Shown one piece after another: positions 3,331-19,800 of a stretch of 24,281 nt of DNA; position 1 is the first letter of the stretch, and every line of letters starts with the position of its first letter. Source of the DNA: Pigoraptor vietnamica. Lineage: Eukaryota > Opisthokonta > Filasterea. The notes beneath the pieces are model-generated. The model did no database searches, was not told where the DNA came from, and saw only the letters and a list, made by a program, of their open reading frames with translations. Position numbers and translations under genes: made by a program. The DNA lies in assembly GCA_943704525.1 (NCBI GenBank), contig CALSCQ010003122.1, forward strand, positions 1 through 24,281. The letters run 5' to 3'.

Positions 3331-6300
3331 TCACTCTGTCGCGAGCGTCTTTCGCGCGCTGACCCACACCACCGAGTCCTTAGACAGTTCCTGGAGGTCG
3401 GCGAAGGTGCGGAGGCGGTATCCCTCCGGGGTGTAGATGGAGCGAACGGCACTGCCCATGTTGAGCCGTCGAGCGGCGTCGTCCATAAACTGGGAGAGGA
3501 GGGCACAGCAGGTCACGTGTTACGGAGGCCAGGAGGGATGAGGGCGGAAGTTGCGTGCAACACAGAGCAGGCACAATTGGTTGCGGTCCGTGAGTGCCGC
3601 AGTATGGGTAACGGAAGAATGGGATGAAGTTGCGCGTCACACAGAGAAACAACAACCGAGTTCCACTCACCGCATTAATGGACTTTGCCGCAATGACCGT
3701 CGATGCATCCGGCTTTTCCACGTCGCGCACGACGAGACGAACAACCGCCGGTGGGGCTGCGTACAGCGCAACAGAGAGAGTCAGTCCGGACGAACAGAAC
3801 AGCACTGACAATAACACCCGACCACTACGAACGGCACAGCCTGAAATAAACTCTTTGTAACGTGCCGCAACAAACCTTCTTGGAGGGCTGCGGCGGCGCC
3901 CGCGGAAATGCGCCGTCCGCTCAGCGGGTGCACGCCACCCCTCGACGGCGGCCGCTTCGTCTTTACTGTGAGCTCCTCGAGGCGGTCCTTCAGCTCGCTC
4001 AAGCTCTGCTCCGCCGCATCGCGCTCCTTCTTCGCAGCCTCGGAGAGGTCGCGCGAGTCGCCGTCGTCCGACTGGCGGAGGCGCGCACTTTCGCGGTCAA
4101 TCTCCGCCTTCAGCCGCTTGATTTCGTCGATGTCTGCACACAAGCCCAAGGCGAAAGGCAGTCAGAGAACCCGCACACAACGTGGCATGCCCACACAGTG
4201 ACACCGTGGGATGAAGAGCGCACAACGCACCGCGCGGGTCGCAGAAGCGCTCGCCGCAGCTTGCGAATGCGTTGGGCGTGTCGCGGCCGTCGCCGGTGGG
4301 CGCTAGTGCGCGCAGGTCGGTGATCTCCGCACCGTCCTCCGCATAGAGCTTGCGAACGGCCGAAGGAAGTCCGAGCCGCTTCGTGGCATCGTCCATGAGC
4401 TGTTGGGGATCGAACAGGGAAGAAAAGTGTGAGACTGTTGTGAGCAAAACTGACAGCAGCAAGAACTGGACGCGAAGCAACTGATGATATGAGCAGTGGA
4501 CGATTGCAGTGTAGGGCGCGCAACATGCCTCCTCGAGGGTCCGCGCGGTGACCACGTGCGAGTCCTTCGGATCGCCACGGCCGTCGTTCCTGAACACCCG
4601 CACGCGCACGTTGCTCGGGGCGTACGCGCGGTACAGCCGAGCGGTCGCTTGCTCCGGCGTCTCCGGTGGGTTCAGCACCGCCGCCATGACCTCCTTGTCC
4701 GGCGACCCACGCACGCGATCCGCGCGCCGCTGCAGCGACTCGATGAGGCTGTCCCTGTTCTCGACGAGGACCTTGAACTCCTCCTCTCCAAGACACAGGC
4801 ACCGGCGACGGCTGCCGCGCGACCGCACGCACTCGCAGGTGAACCGGCGAGCCTTCGGGAGGCGGCGGAGCTTGTGCCCGTTGTGGCATGCACGCGCGCA
4901 CGAGTCGCACATCACGGGCTCCGTGAAGCCCTCGTCCCCGCTCCCGTAGCTGCTGCCGCTGTCTCCAGGCACGGCCTCCTCCTCCTCTTCGTCGCTGTCG
5001 TCGGAGGACGAGTCGTCCGAGCTGCTGCTTCCGCCGCGCTTTCGTTCCTTCTTCAGCTTGCCCTTCCCAGTCGCCCCGCGTGTCGTGTCCAGCTTGTGGA
5101 GCGTGCGCACCTTTCTCCTGCGAGAGCGGCGTTGCCGCCTGTCTTCGGCGCACGTCTCGCACACATAGGCTGCCTGCTTGTGCCCCGTGCCCTCGCGGTC
5201 GATGGCGACTGTGCAGAGACCCGCCTTGAGCGCGGCCGCAAACTCTGTGCATTGAAAGAACCGCGAGTGCGACACGTCAACAACATGCGTGAAACACGTC
5301 CGACAACAGTCGCCCCACGCCACAACAGCACTCTCACGCATGCAGACAGCGCCCACCCACCCTTTTGCCACAGCGTGCCCGCATAACCCGTCAGCGCGCC
5401 AGACGACGGGTCCAGCGACCACAGCTGCGCAGGCGACGGCGGCTCAGCGAGTACGTCCAGACACACCGACGCTGCTTTGTCGCCCTTTGGTGGCGTGACT
5501 GTCAGGGCCAGCAGCGGATTCGCCGTGCACACGAGGCGGCTGTTGTCCCACGTCCACGCGCCGTCGGTGGCATTCGCAGGCTTGCACAGCGCCACCGTCG
5601 CCCCGCTCTTCGGCCGAGCACCCGTCGCACACAGCACGAGCCCGGGGGCGTCCCGACACACGATGCGGTCGCCGTCAAACGACCACCGCTGTGCGTCCGA
5701 TCGCACTTGCGCGTGGCGACTGTCCCGCCGCGAGTAGTCCGAGTACGCATTCTCGCCGCTCACGACGGTCACGTGGCCGCCCGGACTCCCCTCGAGGCAC
5801 ACGGTGCCGTTGAGCTCGTCTAGCGCGTCAAAGTAACGCCGCACAAGGTCCGCCTCTGTCTTTCGGCGCGCAAACGCGTGGCTTTTCGTGGGCCGCGGGC
5901 GAACGGCACGCACGAGCGCGGGATCGCCCGACGTGGACACGACGACGTGCATGTTGCGCGTCAGCTGGGAGAGGGACGTCACCTCCTCTCCATTCGGCAG
6001 GAAGAGCTTGCGGGCGGCGCTCGGGAGGCTCAGCCCGCGCGTGCACGCATCGAGAAACTGCCGCGCAGAAGGGACAAATTTCAGTACGCTGAACGAGCAA
6101 TGGAATAGCAAGACGTGCACGGGTCATAAAGTCATAGACAGCTGACCATCGAGGCCACCAACGCACACGAGGAAATGGGGCTTCAACATGACATGAGCTG
6201 AGGGGCAGACGCACCGCGTTCATCGCCGCCTTGGATCGCGCCGCTGCGCCAGGGCTTTCCGGTTTCGCCTGGCCGTGTTCACGCGTGGCCTGCCTGTAGC

Positions 6301-9300
6301 TGAACCCATAGTCACTGCTGTCATCGCTGTCCGACGAGTCGTCGTCCTCACCGTCGGCGTCGGCGTCCTGTTGCAAGTATTAACGGCACGCTTATCAATA
6401 GCCCCATCCGAGCAGACCCATCCATTGCGAGATAGAATCGCAAACAAAGGCAAGCGGCACACGCACGTCCTTGAAGCAGCTCAGTGAAAAGCGAACAGAA
6501 ACCGCACGGCACGCAGACTCGGAACCAAAAGACCATGGCACGGGCATTGCAGCATAATGAAACGCCAATTAAAACACGACACGCACCTTCGTCACAGGCA
6601 GGCGCGCGATGACCGTCACGCCCTTTGAGGCCGGGTCGCCCGGTCGCGTGACGAGCACGGGTATGCCCGTGGGCGCCGCCATTGCCGAAGTGGGTCTGGA
6701 CGTGGATGCTTCTCCGCCCTTCGCGAGCATGACGGGCGCGTTTGCCACGAGCGTGCCAACAATGTCGAACCCCGCGTTGCAGATGGGGTCGCCGCAAGGG
6801 TGTCGCGGCCACACGAAGCCCTGCTTCTCCCACTGCGGCGACGGGCGCACGTTCACAATGTAGTCGTCCGAATCGAACGGCCCGCGCGACCGCTCCCGTG
6901 CGCGCTTGGACGCGGCTAGCAGGTTGGCCGAAATGTCGGGGTCGTCCGGCTTAATCGCCCAGCGCTGGCGAGGGTCGTTCGGGCGCGGCGCCTCTATCGT
7001 CAGGGGGACGTCACCCGCAAATTGCGCGCCAAAGTCGTCACCGCCGGTCTCTCCGATTGTGAGCACGACCGTCTCGTCTTGTCGCACGAGGCGCAGCGTG
7101 CTGTCGGGCGTGAACTCCCACTGCCACGTCATGTCGGGGTTCGACAGGCGGAGGAGTTCGTTGCGGTGAATTGCCACGGGGACGTACGCCTTCGGGCCCT
7201 GCTTGTCCGGACGCCAACGATGCAAAATGTGAGTGCGCGCGACGCTTATAATTACACCAGGAGATTCAGAAAACCCTAATAATAATAACGATAGTAAAGC
7301 ATGAAAAGAGCAAGGGCGTCTTCGCACAACCAACGCACCTTTCGGAAGCCGCACAGGAAGACGTTCGGGTCGGGGGTGCTCGCAATGGCGCCGTCCTGCC
7401 TGAAGAGCCACCGCTGCTTCTCGTTCCCGCGCTCGCCCTCGCGCCGCTGTCCGGTCCCTATGTAGCACACCGAGGGCGCACCGCCGCTCTCACGTGACGC
7501 GTTCGAGGACGCCGTCTGGCCCTTGCGCGGCGGCGGCGGCGGTTTCGAGGGGAAGGGCACTTCGACCGTCGTGTAGTTCGAAATGCCCACCACGCGTACT
7601 GCGCGAAGGGACGCACGTGTAAGCAGTGGGTAAAGTCAACGCAAGCCATACTAAGGGTCCGTTACGTCGCCCGTTAATAAAAGGAGTCAGTGAATACCCT
7701 ACACGATGTGAGCCGATCCGACAAACCACGCATGCCAGCAGCCCACCCTGCACCGTCTTGAGCGCCTCCCCCGTCGACACCACAACTTCCATGTCGTTTC
7801 GTAGCTCATTCCACGCGTCCTTAATCTCCGCAGACGACTGGCCGTCGAATATCCGCTTCGCACGACCGCCCAGGCTCAGTGCGCGATCGCACGCGTCCAC
7901 CACCTGCGACAAACGGCCACGCGAATCAGCACCGACCTTACCACGCGCGCACACAAAGGCAACCAGATACGCCAATCCAGAACCGGAGTTTTCACCGCAT
8001 AAACGCCTTACATTCTGACGCCCCTGCCTTCCAGCCACACAGAGACACACAAAAGACACACACGGACACATGCAACAGCAGAGCCCCACCGTGCGCAGCA
8101 GGTTCTTTCGGTGCGACTCGATGCCGGCCAGAATCGCCTGCCGCGGGCGCTCGTCGTTGTCCCTCTCCGTCGGTCCCTGCGACAGTTCCACCATCACGGG
8201 GGTGCCGCGCGGGCGGGGTGGCGCCTGCTTCACCACGCCACCGCTCCCGTCCACGACATCACCGCCGATAGCCTTCTTCGCTGCCTTCGACTTCTGCGCG
8301 TCCTTCGCCGTCGGCGTTTTGGGCCGCGTCTGCTCGCTCGGCGGCTTCACTGGCGTGCTGTCGCCGTCCCTTCGCACGTAGAGGCGCACCGTCCGCTTGC
8401 TGCTGAGCACGCGGCTGTTGGCGGGAATCTCAGGGATCATTTCGGCGGGCTCGATGGCACGTGACTTTGGAATGCGCGCGAACAGCGCCTCGAGGGCTTC
8501 AAGCGCCTTGTCGATTTCCGCGAGCGATTGTTCGATTGTGTCGGCGTCGTCCTCGTCGTCGGCCGCGGTGGCGCTGACCTGCAGCACCGACCGCCGCTCC
8601 TTGAGGCTCATGATGGCGCTGCGGAGGAGCCCTGCGAGTGCAGCGCACGCACGCGTCAGTCCGTCATTCATGCCCGTTGGGATGGAAAATAGACAAAAGA
8701 AAGAAAAAGAAACGAGAAAAAAAACGCACCATGTGCATCGAAGTGGAAATCGAACTAGCAGTGCCAGGCAACATTTAGGGCAACAACAAGGCGGTCTCCA
8801 AAACGCACCGCGCGGGCCGGCCGGATCGAAGGGCTCGCCGCACGACACCCAGAGCGGGCGGCCGCCAATAATGCCCGTCCAGACATCCTCCTCGGCGGGG
8901 CAGGGGTCGCTCGGGTCCTCCACCTCGATGCCGTCGAATGCGAACAGCCACCGCGCGGGCTTCGAGAGACCGAGCTTGTCCGTACACTCGGAAAGGAACT
9001 GCACGCAGAGGGCGAATGTGCGCAATCAGTGTGCGTAAAGCGGTCAACAGCGCAAATAGTCCGCTCCTTTCCATCGACGCAGACATGGTGCTTCTGTACG
9101 GGCCTAACTACTGCCTGCGTACCTGCTCCACGCCGTGCCGCGCAACGGTCAGTCGGCTCTCGTCCGAGCGCCCGTTCGGCAACACGATAATGCGCGGCCG
9201 CTTTCGATTCGCCAGTCGCCGCACGACGCTCGTCACCTCCTTCGTCAGCGGCATGCGACGACGGCGGGTGTGGGGGCGTGACCCGCTCTTGCGCCCGACG

Positions 9301-10614
9301 CCCGTCACTACGACATGAACCAACGAATGAGAGAGAGCACAAGAGAGTTTGTAACTGTGTGAACCAACACTGCCGAGAAAGAGAGAGAGGTCAGAGAGAC
9401 AGAGTGCACTCATGCCGACGCTTCCAAATAATATCGCGGCACACACCCGACTCGACCACGATGGACGTCGGCCCGTGAAAGTCCTCGCCGAGGGATATGA
9501 GCACCTCGGTGTCCGTGCGCAGCTTGCACACGTTGCCCACTTCGCGCCCGTCGAGAAGAAAGACGCGCCGCACATCCGCGTTCGTCTCAAAGCGAAGGCG
9601 CGCTTCCTCGAGAAACTGCGTAACAAACGCAGGGCGATTGTGAGCCCGATGTGGCTGCATCAAACAGTACACGCGACCCGTCCTTACATCAAGGCATTCG
9701 CACAATTGCGCACGCAGTGAAGAAGAAACGTACACATAAACGCGCACGTAAACGCATTCACACACACACACAGCGGCACATGCGCGCACACACACGCCGA
9801 CCGCGCACGTGCACTTGCCACCACGCACCTCCTTGTGCGACTTTGCCGTGATCGCAATGCCCCCTTGGTCCGCAGCGCCGTTCCGAAAGGCGTACAAGCG
9901 CACTCCACGCACTTCGTCACGAAAAGTCGGCGACCGCGAACGCCGCGCGCTCCCCCCTCGCGGAAGGCGGTCGTGCGACAAGTGCCCCGTCGCATCACGC
10001 ACTGTCCGCAACACGTTCGAGAGTTTCTGATCCACGTCGGCACTCTCCTCGTCGTCAGAGAACCGCGTGCGACGGTCTCCCTTCCGCCGGACGGTCGGTG
10101 ACGCCGCAGCGATGGCCCTCGCGTGCGTGCGCTCGGCGTCGCTCTCCGAATCCGATTGCGACTCTCTGCCGCTGTGCGACCGCGCACGAGATGCCGGCCG
10201 CGAGTCCAAGTGAACGGCGCCACCTTCGTTCTGCGTGGGCGACTTCGACGCCTTCGCCTTTGCGGATGTCGGTCGCTTCGGGGAACCGCCACGCGACTCG
10301 TGCGAACCGCGTGATCCCGCGCTCGACGGGCGATTGTGCGCACCCTTCGCGTCCGATTTGTCCCCCGCTTGTGACGGATGGCGAAAAAAGTCGTCGTCGA
10401 AGAGGCCCGCGAACAGCGCGTCGATCTCCTCTCCCTTCTTCTTTGACCCACTCGCACCCTTTCCGCGAGAGGGTGACCGGCCGCGCGGCGACGGCGCGCG
10501 CCGTCGTGCGGGGGGGCTCTGCGCCTCCTGCACTGCCTTCCACTCAGCGTGCTCCTGGCGGCGGCGTGCGTGCTCGAGCAGATACCGCGGCACGCGCGGC
10601 GATCGTGGACCCAT
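3331..10614 (-). CDS. DCDC1-like microtubule-associated protein: six doublecortin domains, two ricin-type beta-trefoils, one UBR box
   Basis: Fifteen exons (minus strand): 10614-9829, 9615-9447, 9307-9123, 8998-8809, 8631-8090, 7903-7747, 7598-7339, 7198-6587, 6367-6215, 6057-5361, 5244-4529, 4399-4231, 4133-3876, 3756-3671, 3489-3331. They total 5139 nt (1712 aa) with every phase matching. The ATG at 10614 follows an in-frame TGA 15 nt upstream. Domains by residue: Ser/Arg-rich N-terminus 1-230; DCX1 about 235-310; DCX2 354-440; DCX3 585-675; trefoil A 690-870 (QRW at two sites, WQW); DCX4 943-1065, split by an acidic Asp/Ser insert; trefoil B 1085-1250 (AQRW, AWTW, AQLW); UBR box 1261-1401; DCX5 1462-1545; coiled coil 1546-1604; DCX6 1633-1712. 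DCX folds bind tubulin. Repeated DCX plus ricin-type trefoils is the architecture known for animal DCDC1, of similar length. The UBR box is the odd element. Exon 8 could start at 7201 instead of 7198. Confidence 0.88.
4793..5215 (-). other. UBR-box zinc finger encoded in exon 11, with a long charged insert
   Basis: Residues 1261-1401 of the DCDC1-like protein show the UBR-box cysteine/histidine order: an initial CT, then YVCETC, then MCDSCARACHNGHK, FTCEC and finally CLC. UBR boxes in N-recognins bind N-terminal degrons through three zinc ions. Between ETC and MCDSC, where the family usually has about ten residues, there are about 80. They form a Lys/Arg-rich part followed by a Ser/Asp/Glu-rich part (about 4925-5143). 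The flanking metal ligands all look present, so the finger may still fold with the insert looped out. No RING or other E3 module was seen in this protein, so a degradation role is not implied. Confidence 0.8.
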
Positions 10615-11163
10615 TGTTTGAGTTTGTGCTCAAAATCGCACTCACACGACTACGGAGCGCACATTGTGTCGGACCCGCTTCCGCCGTCCGTGGAAGTGCG
10701 ACGCATGCGCTCAGCCCGTTCAAAGATGACCAGTTGTGTGTGGGGAAGAATAGCAGGGCGGTAGAGGGAACAGTGGGATGCCTTCGTCGTGTGTGAAGGT
10801 TCAAAGTTTGAGCGGCAAAGGCGTAACGGGCCCGTTGCTAGGCTCTCTCACGTGACTGGGAGGTATGATGCTACATTTAGCGATTGCTCCCAGTGCGTCA
10901 CCTCGCTCTCACCCCGGATGATTTAATCCGAACACGGAAAGCGCGAGTGCGGCCGTAACCAAATGAGGCAACGCGGGAGAGTCCCCGTGCGATCGAGCTT
11001 GTGTGCACGAACGCGTGAAGACTGTAACAGACAAACGCACTCCCACAGACCCACGCGCGCGCCACGGTGGCATCGACAGCATCGCCTTCGTGATGTGTGG
11101 CAGTTGCGCTTGTCCGCCGGCAGAGATGCCATTCTCCGACTGCGCCTGCAAACCGAGTGCGTA
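10615..11163. promoter_or_regulatory. Divergent promoter region shared by the DCDC1-like and kinesin genes
   Basis: These 549 bp separate two start codons on opposite strands and must hold both 5' UTRs and both promoters. A perfect 12-bp palindrome AACGGGCCCGTT at 10825-10836 has TAACGG on the plus strand and CAACGG on the minus strand, both fitting the MYB-type YAACKG core. I did not find a convincing RFX X-box or TATA box. A reading frame runs upstream of the kinesin ATG from 10963 but has no domain-like content. Confidence 0.55.
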
Positions 11164-14100
11164 ATGACCTTGCAAATGGACGCTGGAGGCTCTTCCGCTG
11201 GGGGCGATGCGCCCGGCGGGGAGAATTTCATTGTTGCCGTGCGACTTCGGCCGACCTCCGAGCCCGAGAATGCTGTCGTGCGCGTGGACAGTCGCACGGC
11301 GCTCTCTATCACCGTCGCGGAGAGGGGCAGCGAGGCAGCGACGCACTCGTTTCTGTTTGACCAAGTGTACGACGGGGACGCGGAGCAGGCGTCGGTGTTC
11401 CAGCGCACAGCACAGCGCGCAGTGCTGTCGGCCATGGACGGCGTGAATGCCACCGTGTTCGCGTACGGACAGACGGGGACGGGCAAGACGTTCACGATGG
11501 AGGGAACACGGGAGCAACCAGGCGTGATTCCGCGCGCTTTTGACCTTATCTTCGCACGCGCCGCCGAGGAGAAGAGTGCGGGCGCCAGTTTTTTGCTTCG
11601 CGCGTCCTTTTGCCAGATCTACAACGAGACGGTGGTGGACCTCCTTGCGCAGAGTGCCGCCGACCAACGGCCGCTCAAAATTCGCGAAGATGCGAAGGGC
11701 GGCGTGTACGTGCAGAACCTCTCGCAATGGGTCGTGCGGGAACGCTCCGACTGCGGGCGCCTTCTCACGCGTGGCAACGAACTCAGGGCCGTTGCGGCGA
11801 CGCGCATGAACGCGCAGAGCAGCCGCAGCCACGCCGTGTTCACGCTGGTGGTCGAGCAGAGCGGCACGAAGACGGGCGCCGGTCGCGTGCGTGTTGCGAG
11901 GCTCAATCTCGTTGATCTTGCGGGCTCGGAGAGGGTGCGTGACACGGGCGCGGACGGGAAGCGATTGGACGAGGCGCGCAGCATCAACCAGTCGCTCGCG
12001 GCGTTTGGCAACGTCATCTCGGCGCTTGCGCAGCGTGCGAAGGGACAGGGGGCGGCTACTCACGTGCCCTACAGGGATTCGAAGCTCACGCGCATGCTGC
12101 AGGTGCGTATATTGTGTTCGCACACATATATAGGCGCATGTTTGACGCGCACGATTGAACTCACACAGAGTGTATGACACAACGTCCTCGCCTGTGTGTG
12201 CAGACAAGTCTCGGTGGCAACTGCCGCACGGCCCTCATCGCGACCATCAGTGCCGACTACCGCGCTGCGCAAGAGTCCCTCTCGACGCTCCGATTTGCCG
12301 CCCGCGCGCGCAATGTGCGGGCGCGCATCACCGTCAACGAGGAGGCCAGTGGCGGCACCGTCCTCGCGAGGTATGTAACGTGCATGTACGTGTGTGCCAA
12401 TGCATTGTCTTCCGTGCGCCATACACGTCGTCCTGTTTCTTTGTTTGTTTACGTGCGCTCACGTGCTGCAGGTACGAGAACGAGATCAAGGCCCTTAAAG
12501 CGCAGCTCGCCACACACACAGACCAGTTGCGCCACTTTATGGACGCGGAAATGCAGCGCACGCAGTTTGCGCAGCGCCTCGCCGCGACGACCGAAGATCT
12601 CGAGCGCGAGCGGCGCGAACGCGAGGACGTCGAAAAGCGCTTGCAGCACCTCCAGTCGCAGTTGATTGGTGCCGGGAGTGCGTCGACGTCGGGGGCGGTG
12701 GCGGCCGCGCCCATCGGCCGTAGTGACACCATGGGCGGCGTAGTGATTGTTTACGACGCCGACCAGAACGGCGGCGCGGGCGAGCGTTCGGATGAAGAGG
12801 GCGAGGACGACGTTGTGGTGGGGTCAGCGGGGCCGCAGCCGTCATCGTCCAAGTCGGCGTCGCTCGCAGAGGCCATGCAAAAGTTGGACGAAATGGCGGC
12901 GTCCTTGGAGATGGAGCGCGTCGAGCGGAAGCGGCTGCAGCGCGAGGCCGAGGAATTGCGTCGGAAGGCGAGCGCGTTCGAGTCATCGCTGCAGAAGAAA
13001 CAGGACGACACGCAGCGCAAACAGGCCGACGTGCGCGCGGGGACGATTACACTGACGATGTCGTTTGGTGAAGCGGCGCGGTGGATGTTGCACGGCCTGG
13101 GTGCGGAGGGCGGAATGGCCTCCTTCACGGGCAAGGACCTCGTCGAGTGGACGATGCGCAACGGCGGCGTTGCACCGGACACGGCACGGGAGGTGGCCCA
13201 GCACCTCATGGACGCGGGACACCTGCGTCGCGTGGACGGGCGTTCTCGTTTCTCGCTGCGTCAACAAATGACATTCCACGGCGTAGCTCTGCACGAGGCG
13301 GCGATGGCGGGTGACGTTGAGAAGCTCCGTCGGCTGATCGGGTCGTCCGGGTCCAAACTCATCGACACGCGGGATGCCGACGGCCGAACGGCGCTCATGT
13401 ATGCGATATCGACTGGACGCGAGGACTGTGCGCGCCTCCTGCTGGACAGTGGCGCATCGCTGACGGCGCGGGATAAGGACAAGCACACGGCGCTGCTGTG
13501 GGCGGTGCACACGTCGCAGCCGAAATTCGTGCGCATGCTCATGGCGAAAGGGGCCGACTGGCGGCACTTGGACGCGCGCGCACGCACGGCGCTGCACTGG
13601 TGCGCACGCAACGCCGACGCCGGCTGCCTCCGCGCGATTGTCGAGTCGTTGCCGCAGGGCGACGTTGTCCGGCCGACCGATCTGAACGCGGGCGATGACG
13701 AGGGTCTGACGCCACTGCACTGGGCGGCGATGTATGGCGGGCGGGAGCAGGCCAAGCAGCTTATTGCGCTGGGTGCGAACGTGCGCGCGACGGACATTGA
13801 GCTGAAGACGGCGCTCCACTTTGCGGCGGCGGGCAACGCGGGCGAAATTGTGCGTGTGCTGCTTGCGGCGGACGACAAGAACCCGTCGGCGTGTGACCTT
13901 CGCGCGATCACGGGACACACGCCCCTCCACCTTGCGTGCGGTGCCGGCGCGGAGTCGGCCCTCGTCCATCTCCTCGCCCAAAAGCCCCGCGCAAATCTCG
14001 GCCTTGCTGACGACCAGGGCCGCACTGTGCTGCACTACTCTGCCGCCCGCGGGGACGTCGCATGCGTCAACAGGCTCATCGGGGCGGGCGCGGATCCGTG

Positions 14101-14578
14101 GGTCGTCGACAGCCACGGACGCACCCCGCGCGACTACACCGAGTTTTTTGGCGCGAGCCACGGCGACGCGTCGTCGTTTGAAAAGTGCGCCCGACGCCTC
14201 GAGGACGCCGAGCGCGAGTGGTCTCGCCGCGGCAAGGGCGTGCGGTGGCGCGCGACACCGTTCGTTCCGACCGAATCGGAGTACTCGCGCGCGGCGGCGT
14301 CAGCGTCGAAGCGCCCGCAGTCGCTCGCGGATTCGTTCAGCGCGTCGTTTGTGTCGGACGGCGGGGACGGGGGCTCGTTCTACGGCCGCAACCAGACGGC
14401 GTCCCCCCTGCCTGCGGCGCTTGCCACGGGCAGTGGCATGTCCGTGGGCGGTGCTGTGGGCCCGGCGGTCAAGGGCGGCGCGTGCCCTACATGCGGTCGT
14501 CGTGCCTTCATGACACCGGCGACGCCGAACTTGCGCGCCGTGGGCTTGGTGGCGCCTGACATGACCGTCCCGGAGTGA
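11164..14578 (+). CDS. N-terminal-motor kinesin with coiled coils, DEP domain and ankyrin repeats
   Basis: Exons 11164-12102, 12204-12370 and 12472-14578 give 3213 nt (1070 aa). The motor, residues about 22-365, has FIVAVRLRP, the P-loop GQTGTGKT (102-109), switch I NAQSSRSH (216-223), switch II LVDLAGSER (249-257) and the HVPYRDSKLTRML helix. All ATPase motifs are intact. Coiled coils follow at about 370-435 and 500-558. Residues 560-630 match a DEP domain (FTGKDLVEW, then AQHLMDAGHLRRVD). Residues 635-935 hold eight or nine ankyrin repeats (for example DGRTALMYA, GLTPLHWAA, GHTPLHLAC). A CPTC pair at 1039-1042 sits near the C-terminus. DEP and ankyrin modules suggest cargo or membrane binding. 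I chose ATG 11164; the frame is open upstream to 10963, but that part looks noncoding. The family assignment among kinesins is open. Confidence 0.9.
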
Positions 14579-16509: not shown

Positions 16510-16777
16510 ATGGCGGCTTCAGCGTCAAGCGCCACGACGGCCGCGGTTCGGCGGCAGATGTCGAAGCGACACAGTGGGCGATTCAGCCTCTCTGTGCTGG
16601 TTGGTTTCATGTGCGACTACCTCAGAGTGTTGCTTACACCTGGCTGAGCGATAATCAACTGATCGTGCGCTCGTGTTGTTGCAGGAGAAGGACTCCCGGC
16701 CAACAATTCAACGAATATCCATGGGTGCGTTTCGTGCGACTGCAGTTTATGCCATTTTGTGTGTGTGTGCGTGTGTG

Positions 16778-16809
<32 letters not shown>

Positions 16810-19800
16810 CGTGTGTGTGTGTGTGTGTGTGCGTGTGTGTGTGTGTGCGCGTGTGTGTGTGTGTGTGTGTGCGTGTGTGTGTGTATGTGGGTGTGTGCGT
16901 GAGTGCGTGTATTGGCTGGTCTGTGCACAGCTGAGGGAAAGTGGACAGAAGGAGTTTTGTACGTGCGCGTGTGTGTACGCACATGCGTATATTGCGTGAG
17001 CGCGATGAGAGCGTGTTTGTGCGCACATGGATAATATGCTGATCGCCATTGGGCTAATGTGGGCACTGTGCGTGGCAGAGGAGGGCCTTGCGATGGAAAT
17101 CATGAAGCACTTTGACAAGGAACACATACGACGTCTAAAGCACGATTTCAACGAAATGGGCGGCGGCGACGGCGTGTCATTGGACCAGGCACGTGCTGAC
17201 TCATTCCTCCCGAGTGTGCCAGTGTGTTGCGTGTGCCCATGGTTCGCGCCTGTACTTTGTTTGAGCCACGGTCGCAGTTCTCTATGGCGGACTGATGCGC
17301 CTGCCTGCATGTGCCCGTGCTTGTCAGTTTGTGCCACGTGAGCAACTTCACCAGTCCTATATAGCGTGCCGATGCGTCCGCTCCTGCTTGCGTATGCCGT
17401 GGTTGTCTGCGGCTTATTATAGCAAGGGCCCCAGTCTTCTGATTCGTCTGTGGCTTGCGTCGCGCGCAGTTTGTGTGCATCATGCAGGCGCACCTTCCCA
17501 AGGGGCAGACGGAGGAGGAGCGGCGCGCCATCGTGGGCAACCTGTGCGAGTTCTTCGACGAAATGGACATTAACGGCGACCAGAGTCTCGAGTGGGATGA
17601 GTTTGTCGAGTTCGTCGTGGCCACGGGAACGTCCAAGACGTCCGGCATCACCGCAGACGACGCGAACGAAGAGGTGGGAGGAAAGGGGGTCTCTGCGTGT
17701 CACCTGCTGTGAATGCCGCTCAGTCTTGTGTATTAAGGGCTGCATGCACTCTGTTGTCGCCCGTGGGCTCGTGTGGCCAACTGATCTTCGACTTGCTCCG
17801 TCCAGTTCCGCCCGAGTTCGATTACGGACCTCTCCAGCCACAAGCACAGCATCGAGCGCGTGGAATACTTTTCGAAAATGGACAAGCTTGTCGCGCTTGA
17901 GCGAGGGAACGTCGTCAAGATATACGAGCCCGAGGTGCGTGCTGCTCTGCGTGCTTTATCTGCGGATGAGCTGGTTCGATTCCCTGTACCTTTTTTTGGT
18001 TCATCACGTAAGTAGCTGTTCTGCTCTATGTTCGGTTAATGGGCCTGTGTATCAACTAATCTTACCGCCTGTGCCATTGAATGAGTTTATGTATAGCCCG
18101 CAATTGCCCCTCTCACATCCCCACGCGTGCAGAACTGCCGCCTTGAGGCTGAATTGACAGCGCACAAGGGCTCTGTCGTGTGTTGCGGTGCGTAGTTGAT
18201 CTCATCGGCCGACTGCTAGCGTGTAACTCACTAGACGTGGTCGCGTGGTATTCGTTTCTGCTTGTCGTCCAACGCGGCACTCGGCATAATCCATAGGACT
18301 CGTGCGCACTATCGGAGCGCGCGCCATTTGCCTCACTTCTGTCTCATCCAACGCACTCTTCGTCCACAGAGTACATACAGTCCCACCGAACACTCGCGAC
18401 AGCGTCGATGGATTTGTCTGTGAATTTTTGGGACGCCAATTACAACCTCACGCGGCGGCTGCGCACGAGCCATACGCAGTATGCGCTGCGGTGGGCCGAC
18501 TCGAGCGACATTCTCTACAGCGGAGATGCGACGGGCGCCATCCACGCATGGAACTACGACACGGTGCGTGCGCGCCTGCACGCTGTGCCTCTCGTAATGA
18601 CAGGACCTTGTTGCTTGCGAAATAATTCTGCACCGTATGTTTCGCTGTTATCCATATTGGCGATTGGACCATTCGCTCACACGCTGCGCTCCCTCTCCGC
18701 ACAGCTGCAAGCGCGCGCGCACCTCCACCGCCACGACAAGGCAGTCATGGACCTCTGTTCGGTGCCCTCGCTCGGGATTCTCGTCAGTGCGTCGCTTGAC
18801 CGCGCCATTTGCGTGTGGGACGTGGTCACGTGGGACATTCGCAACGAACTCGAGGGTCACACGAAGGTACGATTGGCGCACAATGTGACGTCTTGCTGTC
18901 TGTCTCTTTGATCTCGTGTTGTATGAATGAGTGTTGCGAGCGGCGAGCCCCGCCAGTACGCACGCTGACTCACTTATTTCGTCACCGCAGGGCGTGACGT
19001 CACTTGCGTACATGGCGGACTACCATCTGCTGTTCAGTGCGGGCTTCGAACACGAGATCTCCGGATGGAACCCCTTCATCCGCAGCTCTATTGCCCGGTT
19101 GCGGGGCCACCCATGTTCCCTCGTCGCCCTCCGCGCAGTGCCCAATTCGCCGCAACTCATCTCGGCGGACAAGGAGGGCACGATCAAAGTCTGGGACGTG
19201 TGAGTGTGCGCGTGTGTGCGTGCATGCGTGCGTGCGTATCCCATGTGCCCGTGTATGCGCACGACGCATTTGTCATTACTGCGCTTAATCAGTGTGACTG
19301 CTTTCATTGACTCCGGCGTTGCGCAGGCGCACTTACGGGTGCATGCAGACGTTCACGGGTCCCCATGGCCTCCAGGGACTGTCGTCGGTGTGCGTTGTGG
19401 ACGCCCCGAACAAGGACCACATGGTCGTCGCAGCCACGCACAAGCTCACCTTCTTTGAGTATCCGCTCTATGTCCGGATAGATTGTTGAACCCCGACATT
19501 TCCGACGTGGCGTTTCGTGTTAGTAGTCTGCTTAGCGACTGTGGCCTCGAGTTCGATCGCCGTTGTCTGCGCAGCTTTCTTCCTTGACTTGCACCGTTTT
19601 CCGTTTGCGCGTTCAGCCACGGCGACCCTCCGAATCCGAGCGTGACGGACGCACTGCCGGTGACCGCTTGCCTGTACAACTCGATCATGAACATCTTTCT
19701 CACTGTCGCCGGCAAGAGCGCAAAGGTGCGTCTCTCTTACTATGTACCTTATAACGTCCAGCCGCACCCCGAGGTAGGCACCATTTGCGTGCGCTTCCGT

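Follow-up and report, generated by a model that had tools for sequence, protein, structure and literature searches.

The window, i.e., the whole stretch of 24,281 nucleotides that was analyzed, is the entire contig C1291 of the genome of Pigoraptor vietnamica (32.5 Mb over 1395 contigs), and its forward strand carries a complete gene model at 11164..14578, here termed KDA1, which consists of three exons with GT-AG introns and codes for a predicted protein of 1070 residues without internal stop. Exon 1 (11164..12102) contains the start codon and most of a kinesin motor, exon 2 (12204..12370) the end of the motor (Pfam Kinesin 288-327) and the start of the neck, and exon 3 (12472..14578) encodes coiled coils, a DEP domain, an ankyrin array, and a C-terminal tail. 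Both introns are 101 nt long (12103..12203, in which the exon 1 reading frame stops, and 12371..12471). The joined exons comprise 3213 nt, or 1071 codons, with a single terminal stop. The start codon is uncertain, since another ATG lies in frame at 10963, and translation from there would lengthen the N-terminus by 67 residues relative to the proposed start at 11164. The length of the open frame is weak evidence, because a 438-residue antisense frame also spans exon 3, and the case for the fusion rests on homology and on a paralog on contig C280 rather than on open frame length.

In a Pfam search with the whole protein, the kinesin motor scored 362.4 bits (residues 33-351, profile positions 7-327), and the P-loop GQTGTGKT (residues 102-109; 11467..11490, identified by motif reading), switch I, switch II, and the YRDSKLT motif are all present. 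The predicted protein is a member of the kinesin superfamily with a complete motor domain. A first coiled coil that represents the neck (residues 366-436; 12360..12673) is split by intron 2 and shows heptad periodicity (shuffle p 0.032) with weak coiled-coil Pfam matches, and a second one (residues 494-556; 12845..13033) shows heptad periodicity with a shuffle p of 0.0055. The DEP domain (residues 565-630; 13058..13255) is followed by ankyrin repeats 1-8 (residues 640-919; 13283..14122), which were recognized by Pfam and which, according to offset tests, are in register with repeats 1-8 of an inversin-like gene on contig C55, and, by sequence reading, a degenerate ninth unit or C-cap (residues 920-949; 14123..14212). 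Pfam Ank_2 scored 186.5 bits on the whole protein in five stretches, with ankyrin stretches from residue 642. The preliminary description had already given the 2107 nt of exon 3, an in-frame junction of coiled coil, DEP domain, and ankyrins with a complete N-terminal motor, and eight or nine ankyrin repeats; the length is correct, the spliced frame is stop-free and its order is repeated on C280, and counting by eye yields eight full repeats plus the degenerate ninth cap (residues 640-949).

The low-complexity Ser/Gly/Ala tail (14243..14575, sequence reading) gave no match in a Pfam search. It contains a CPTCGRR motif (14483-14503) that is reminiscent of half a zinc knuckle and that did not appear in our reading of the C280 tail. 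On the reverse strand, frames with DCX and DCX2_DCDC1 matches (window 4100-10629, DCDC1-like) lie head to head with KDA1, and about 0.5 kb separates the end of the nearest open frame from the KDA1 start downstream of it; a promoter shared by these two microtubule-related genes is possible. A TG-rich dinucleotide tract of about 150 nt is found at window positions 16758-16910.

A paralog with the same domain order and the phylogeny of the motor

The genome contains 137 kinesin exon matches, which manual grouping assigned to 39 loci, the window among them, and a DEP search gave eight matches over five contigs. With exon 3 of KDA1 as query, at least 74 matches were obtained (64 of 157 candidates were scored), and the best of the scored matches were on C280 (170.2 bits) and then on C55 (157.6 bits). 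Among the 39 loci and the scored matches, kinesin, DEP, and ankyrin sequences follow each other in line on one strand only on C1291 and C280, and the kinesin and ankyrin matches of C55 and C53 are apart and on opposite strands. Contig C132 has four DEP matches, one of them strong (86 bits), and no kinesin match. On viral contigs, six stretches matched a pattern, none of them a relative. The order of the C280 gene, KDA2, was read from the in-line motor, DEP, and ankyrin matches, and GT-AG introns identified by eye cover the joints from coil exon to coil exon and from DEP exon to ankyrin exon. KDA2 thus has an intron between DEP domain and ankyrins that is absent from KDA1. The predicted KDA1 and KDA2 proteins are paralogs that share the order of motor, DEP domain, and ankyrins.

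Since C280 repeats this order, separate transcripts for the motor and the DEP/ankyrin part are unlikely. The view that two genes or transcripts have been merged by the gene model could draw on the ambiguous start codon, but it would have to account for a neck coil that continues in frame across intron 2, for a spliced frame that is stop-free from the motor to the DEP domain, and for the identical order in the paralog, and we regard it as highly improbable. An artefact of assembly or gene modeling was likewise considered, and it is ruled out by the C280 paralog. At the sequence level, it is confirmed that the motor, the DEP domain, and the ankyrin array are parts of one gene.

The PDB sequences closest to the KDA1 motor are KIF3B (278 bits) and OSM-3 (270 bits). 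For phylogenetic analyses, motors were pieced together from 21 of the 38 other kinesin loci of the genome. A first tree of 29 rows comprised the two KDA motors, nine references (KIF11 as a provisional sequence; kinesin-4, -6, -7, -10, and -13 not represented), and 18 rows of the genome itself, without the divergent or partial L024 and L031 and with L037 replaced by the hand-joined C280 motor. The motor-domain tree that the preliminary description had suggested places KDA1 and KDA2 in a starred clade of their own (99/98), and the pair was kept (96/90) with 31 rows, when the mechanically assembled L037 as well as L024 and L031 were included; the KDA1 row had an unusual composition in both trees. 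The pair was outside the five-row kinesin-2 clade in the free trees, and a one-clade AU test for grouping with kinesin-2 gave a p-AU of 0.091. For kinesin-12 (KIF15), the p-AU was 0.553 with a likelihood slightly above that of the free tree, and in the free trees the KDA pair and KIF15 formed separate starred clades. The corresponding values were 0.076 for kinesin-1, 0.35 for kinesin-8, and 0.15 for kinesin-9. The preliminary description knew of no standard kinesin family with this domain order and thought it might be lineage-specific; the two motors do have their own clade, but membership of the pair in kinesin-1, -2, -8, -9, or -12 is not rejected by these tests, and its assignment is ambiguous among the families sampled. 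Kinesin-3 was the sole family rejected among the six tested, with a p-AU of 0.036 for grouping with KIF1A (one of six tests, uncorrected) and no FHA match in KDA1.

A divergent DEP domain

The preliminary description had postulated a DEP fold at residues 560-630, and a Pfam DEP match was indeed found, at residues 586-630 (PF00610, profile positions 17-63 of 72), albeit in a divergent form whose score depends on context: with a Pfam cut-off of 32.7 bits, it reached 34.9 bits on a 75-residue excerpt and 33.7 bits in the genome search, and it fell below the cut-off on a 198-residue excerpt (32.2 bits) and on the whole protein (29.1 bits). The DEP domain of KDA2 is full length (46.4 bits, profile positions 1-72), and the two domains share 25% identity over 93 columns of a MAFFT alignment. 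A two-row profile built from both detected Dishevelled-2 (E 2.9e-6) and DEPTOR (E 2e-5) among PDB sequences, and no chain without a DEP domain ranked above these. Of the 25 PDB sequences listed, 24 are DEP-bearing proteins, as assigned by name or by what is known of the family, and one is not (PliG, E 0.44). When the KDA1 DEP excerpt alone was used for a phmmer search of the PDB, the two proteins matched (E values of 0.095 and 0.21) were not DEP proteins. AlphaFold models that contained the KDA1 DEP domain, either with the ankyrins or alone, were poor (mean pLDDT 60 and 54), and they disagreed on the secondary structure of the domain; this and the score below the cut-off on the whole protein count against our preferred reading of KDA1, which is given further below. 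The 50 Foldseek matches listed were mainly ankyrin and DARPin chains and uninformative for the DEP domain.

In Dishevelled, the N-terminal part of the DEP domain bears the finger loop. As the KDA1 match begins at profile position 17 of 72, the N-terminal part of its DEP domain is missing or unrecognizable, and the stretch before the match is Gly-rich, with a six-residue gap relative to KDA2. This bears on the idea of the preliminary description that KDA1 is a membrane-adaptor kinesin, whose DEP domain contacts a membrane or receptor while the ankyrins bind cargo. That the domain is recognizable at all and that KDA2 has it in full length speaks for this idea, but the KDA1 match lacks profile positions 1-16, and the DEP domain as a membrane adaptor was not supported; we consider such a kinesin quite improbable. 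The ankyrin protein diversin and the DEP protein Dishevelled are said to interact (PMC3175158), and the pairing of DEP domain and ankyrins in KDA1 may therefore be called suggestive, not more.

The ankyrin array and inversin-type genes

Among the loci compared, both KDA tails have their best non-kinesin relative in a C55 open frame (160 bits with KDA1 and 209 bits with KDA2), and the KDA1 and KDA2 tails matched each other with 179 and 181 bits. In score, the KDA2 array is thus closer to C55 (209 bits) than to KDA1 (181 bits), which counts against our preferred reading. Like human inversin, for which only a provisional sequence was used (as for human ANKRD6), the C55 gene and a gene on C406 have 16 ankyrin repeats and, behind them, IQ motifs, as seen by eye and in the case of C55 only IQ-like. 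In KDA1, no IQ motif was found by Pfam or by pattern.

To compare the arrays, they were split by repeat, the mean repeat-to-repeat score was determined at every offset, and the value at the best offset was compared with those obtained after permuting the order of the partner's repeats (5000 permutations). The KDA1 and KDA2 arrays are in register (57.3 versus 28.0 ± 5.9 at other offsets). With C55, which had been picked for being the best non-kinesin hit—a choice that counts against the weight of the test—KDA1 reached 54.5 at offset 0 (others 27.1 ± 5.2; 3 of 5000 permutations) and KDA2 65.1 (others 33.6 ± 3.6; 0 of 5000), and the identity to C55 over repeats 1-8 is 38% for KDA1 and 40% for KDA2. 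C55 itself matched the provisional human inversin sequence with 61.2 at offset 0 (0 of 5000), and the match of the KDA arrays to this sequence was weaker (102 of 5000 for KDA1 and 109 of 5000 for KDA2). In nine further ankyrin loci of the genome (L041-L049), five arrays could be resolved; L045 and L046 yielded none, and L043 and L049 overlap L042. The control arrays L042, L044, L047, and the provisional human ANKRD6 gave values between 1209 and 3508 of 5000 permutations (24 to 70%), and for L048, with six repeats, the offset comparison with the KDA arrays gave z values of 1.7 and 2.1. C55 preferred offset 0 with L047 when the latter was split into seven repeats (39.6 versus 30.0 ± 2.7), and with a 21-repeat split the best offset was 13. 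L041, the C406 gene, was ruled out as a negative control, since its 16 repeats and IQ motifs show it to be of the inversin type. Without its first repeat, it gave 102 of 5000 permutations with KDA2 and 2279 of 5000 with KDA1; with this repeat, offset 0 was best and not significant (KDA1 2751 of 5000, KDA2 524 of 5000), which again weighs against an inversin origin. A five-row tree of the arrays grouped KDA1 with KDA2 (92/89; 91/89 in another tree) and placed them weakly with C55 (78/80).

Inversin had been mentioned in the preliminary description as an analogy, and the register with C55 suggests that the relationship is probably one of homology. The KDA array probably stems from an inversin-type array that was taken up before KDA1 and KDA2 split. 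The main competitor is an orphan cargo kinesin that works in the cytoplasm and whose array binds unrelated partners, with the likeness to inversin reflecting only the general ankyrin consensus. Ankyrin arrays do resemble one another, as is apparent from the large number of genome matches to exon 3, the register with C406 lacks significance, and the survey by Wickstead and co-workers describes 105 kinesin architectures, most of them found in one organism each (PMC2867816). Against this stands that both paralogs lock to C55 at offset 0, whereas L042, L044, L047, and the provisional ANKRD6 show no such lock. An orphan cargo kinesin appears to us possible, if doubtful.

Possible function and origin of the fusion

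A cilium is likely present in this organism, because IFT81 exons score over the cut-off in the genome, five motors of this genome fall into ciliary kinesin clades of the motor tree (three into kinesin-2 and two into kinesin-9), and NPHP3_hel exceeds the cut-off four times, in one case only when neighboring matches are included. A search for IFT57 gave one match, which was under the cut-off. RCC1 repeats are common in the genome (80 matches).

Our preferred reading, which we put forward tentatively and short of calling it probable, is that KDA1 combines a microtubule motor with the client-binding half of inversin, and that it carries or holds cargo of the inversin complex at or in the cilium. 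The coiled coils would form a dimer, and the N-terminal motor would walk toward microtubule plus ends. For animals, one publication suggests an interaction of NEK8 and NPHP3 with the N-terminal ankyrin region of inversin and ascribes ciliary targeting to the inversin C-terminus (PMC11974183). The KDA array may bind clients of the NEK8 and NPHP3 type, like those of the N-terminal inversin repeats in animals, and motor and neck would replace the cilium-targeting C-terminal half. The DEP domain of KDA1 might provide an additional contact with a protein rather than bind membranes strongly. A more far-reaching version of this reading, a motorized inversin, seems rather unlikely to us: the client-binding half would have been fused to a kinesin ahead of the divergence of KDA1 and KDA2, and this lineage would thereby actively move NEK8/NPHP3-type proteins along microtubules, with the DEP domain as a second adaptor.

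At L050 (C55:41000-48500), a KIF15-type kinesin on the reverse strand lies head to head with the inversin-like gene on the forward strand; this pair consists of a kinesin motor and an inversin array, the two parts that are fused in KDA1. It is suggested as a possible source of the KDA fusion, and a KIF15 affinity of the KDA motor is not rejected by the AU test.

Among the titles listed in our literature searches, none describes a kinesin with DEP domain and ankyrins, and the architecture list of Wickstead and co-workers may contain it. According to the same survey, 1300 of 1624 kinesins have no recognized domain beside the motor (PMC2867816), and KDA1 provides a detailed example of how a member of this superfamily gains domains. 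The molecular basis of inversin localization is said to await detailed study (PMC11974183). A motor with an inversin-type array in its tail would be a direct system for this question, as it names a motor, a client-binding part, and a paralog pair for comparison. If our reading is true, a motor may transport proteins for which inversin is a known anchor.

KDA1 can be compared with four known systems. It shares with the kinesin-2 proteins KIF3B and OSM-3/KIF17, which include its best PDB matches, an N-terminal motor that is followed by a coiled coil, and it differs from them by its DEP/ankyrin tail and its position outside the kinesin-2 clade. For kinesin-12, a tree that unites the KDA pair with KIF15 does not fall behind the free tree in likelihood; KIF15 is not known to have a DEP domain or ankyrins. 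The relation to the DEP domains of Dishevelled and DEPTOR is based on the two-row profile matches, and the difference is that the match of KDA1 lacks the first 16 profile positions. Inversin (INVS/NPHP2), finally, has 16 repeats and IQ motifs and no motor, whereas KDA1 has eight repeats plus a cap and no IQ motif; these eight repeats match the inversin-like gene of C55 in order and register.
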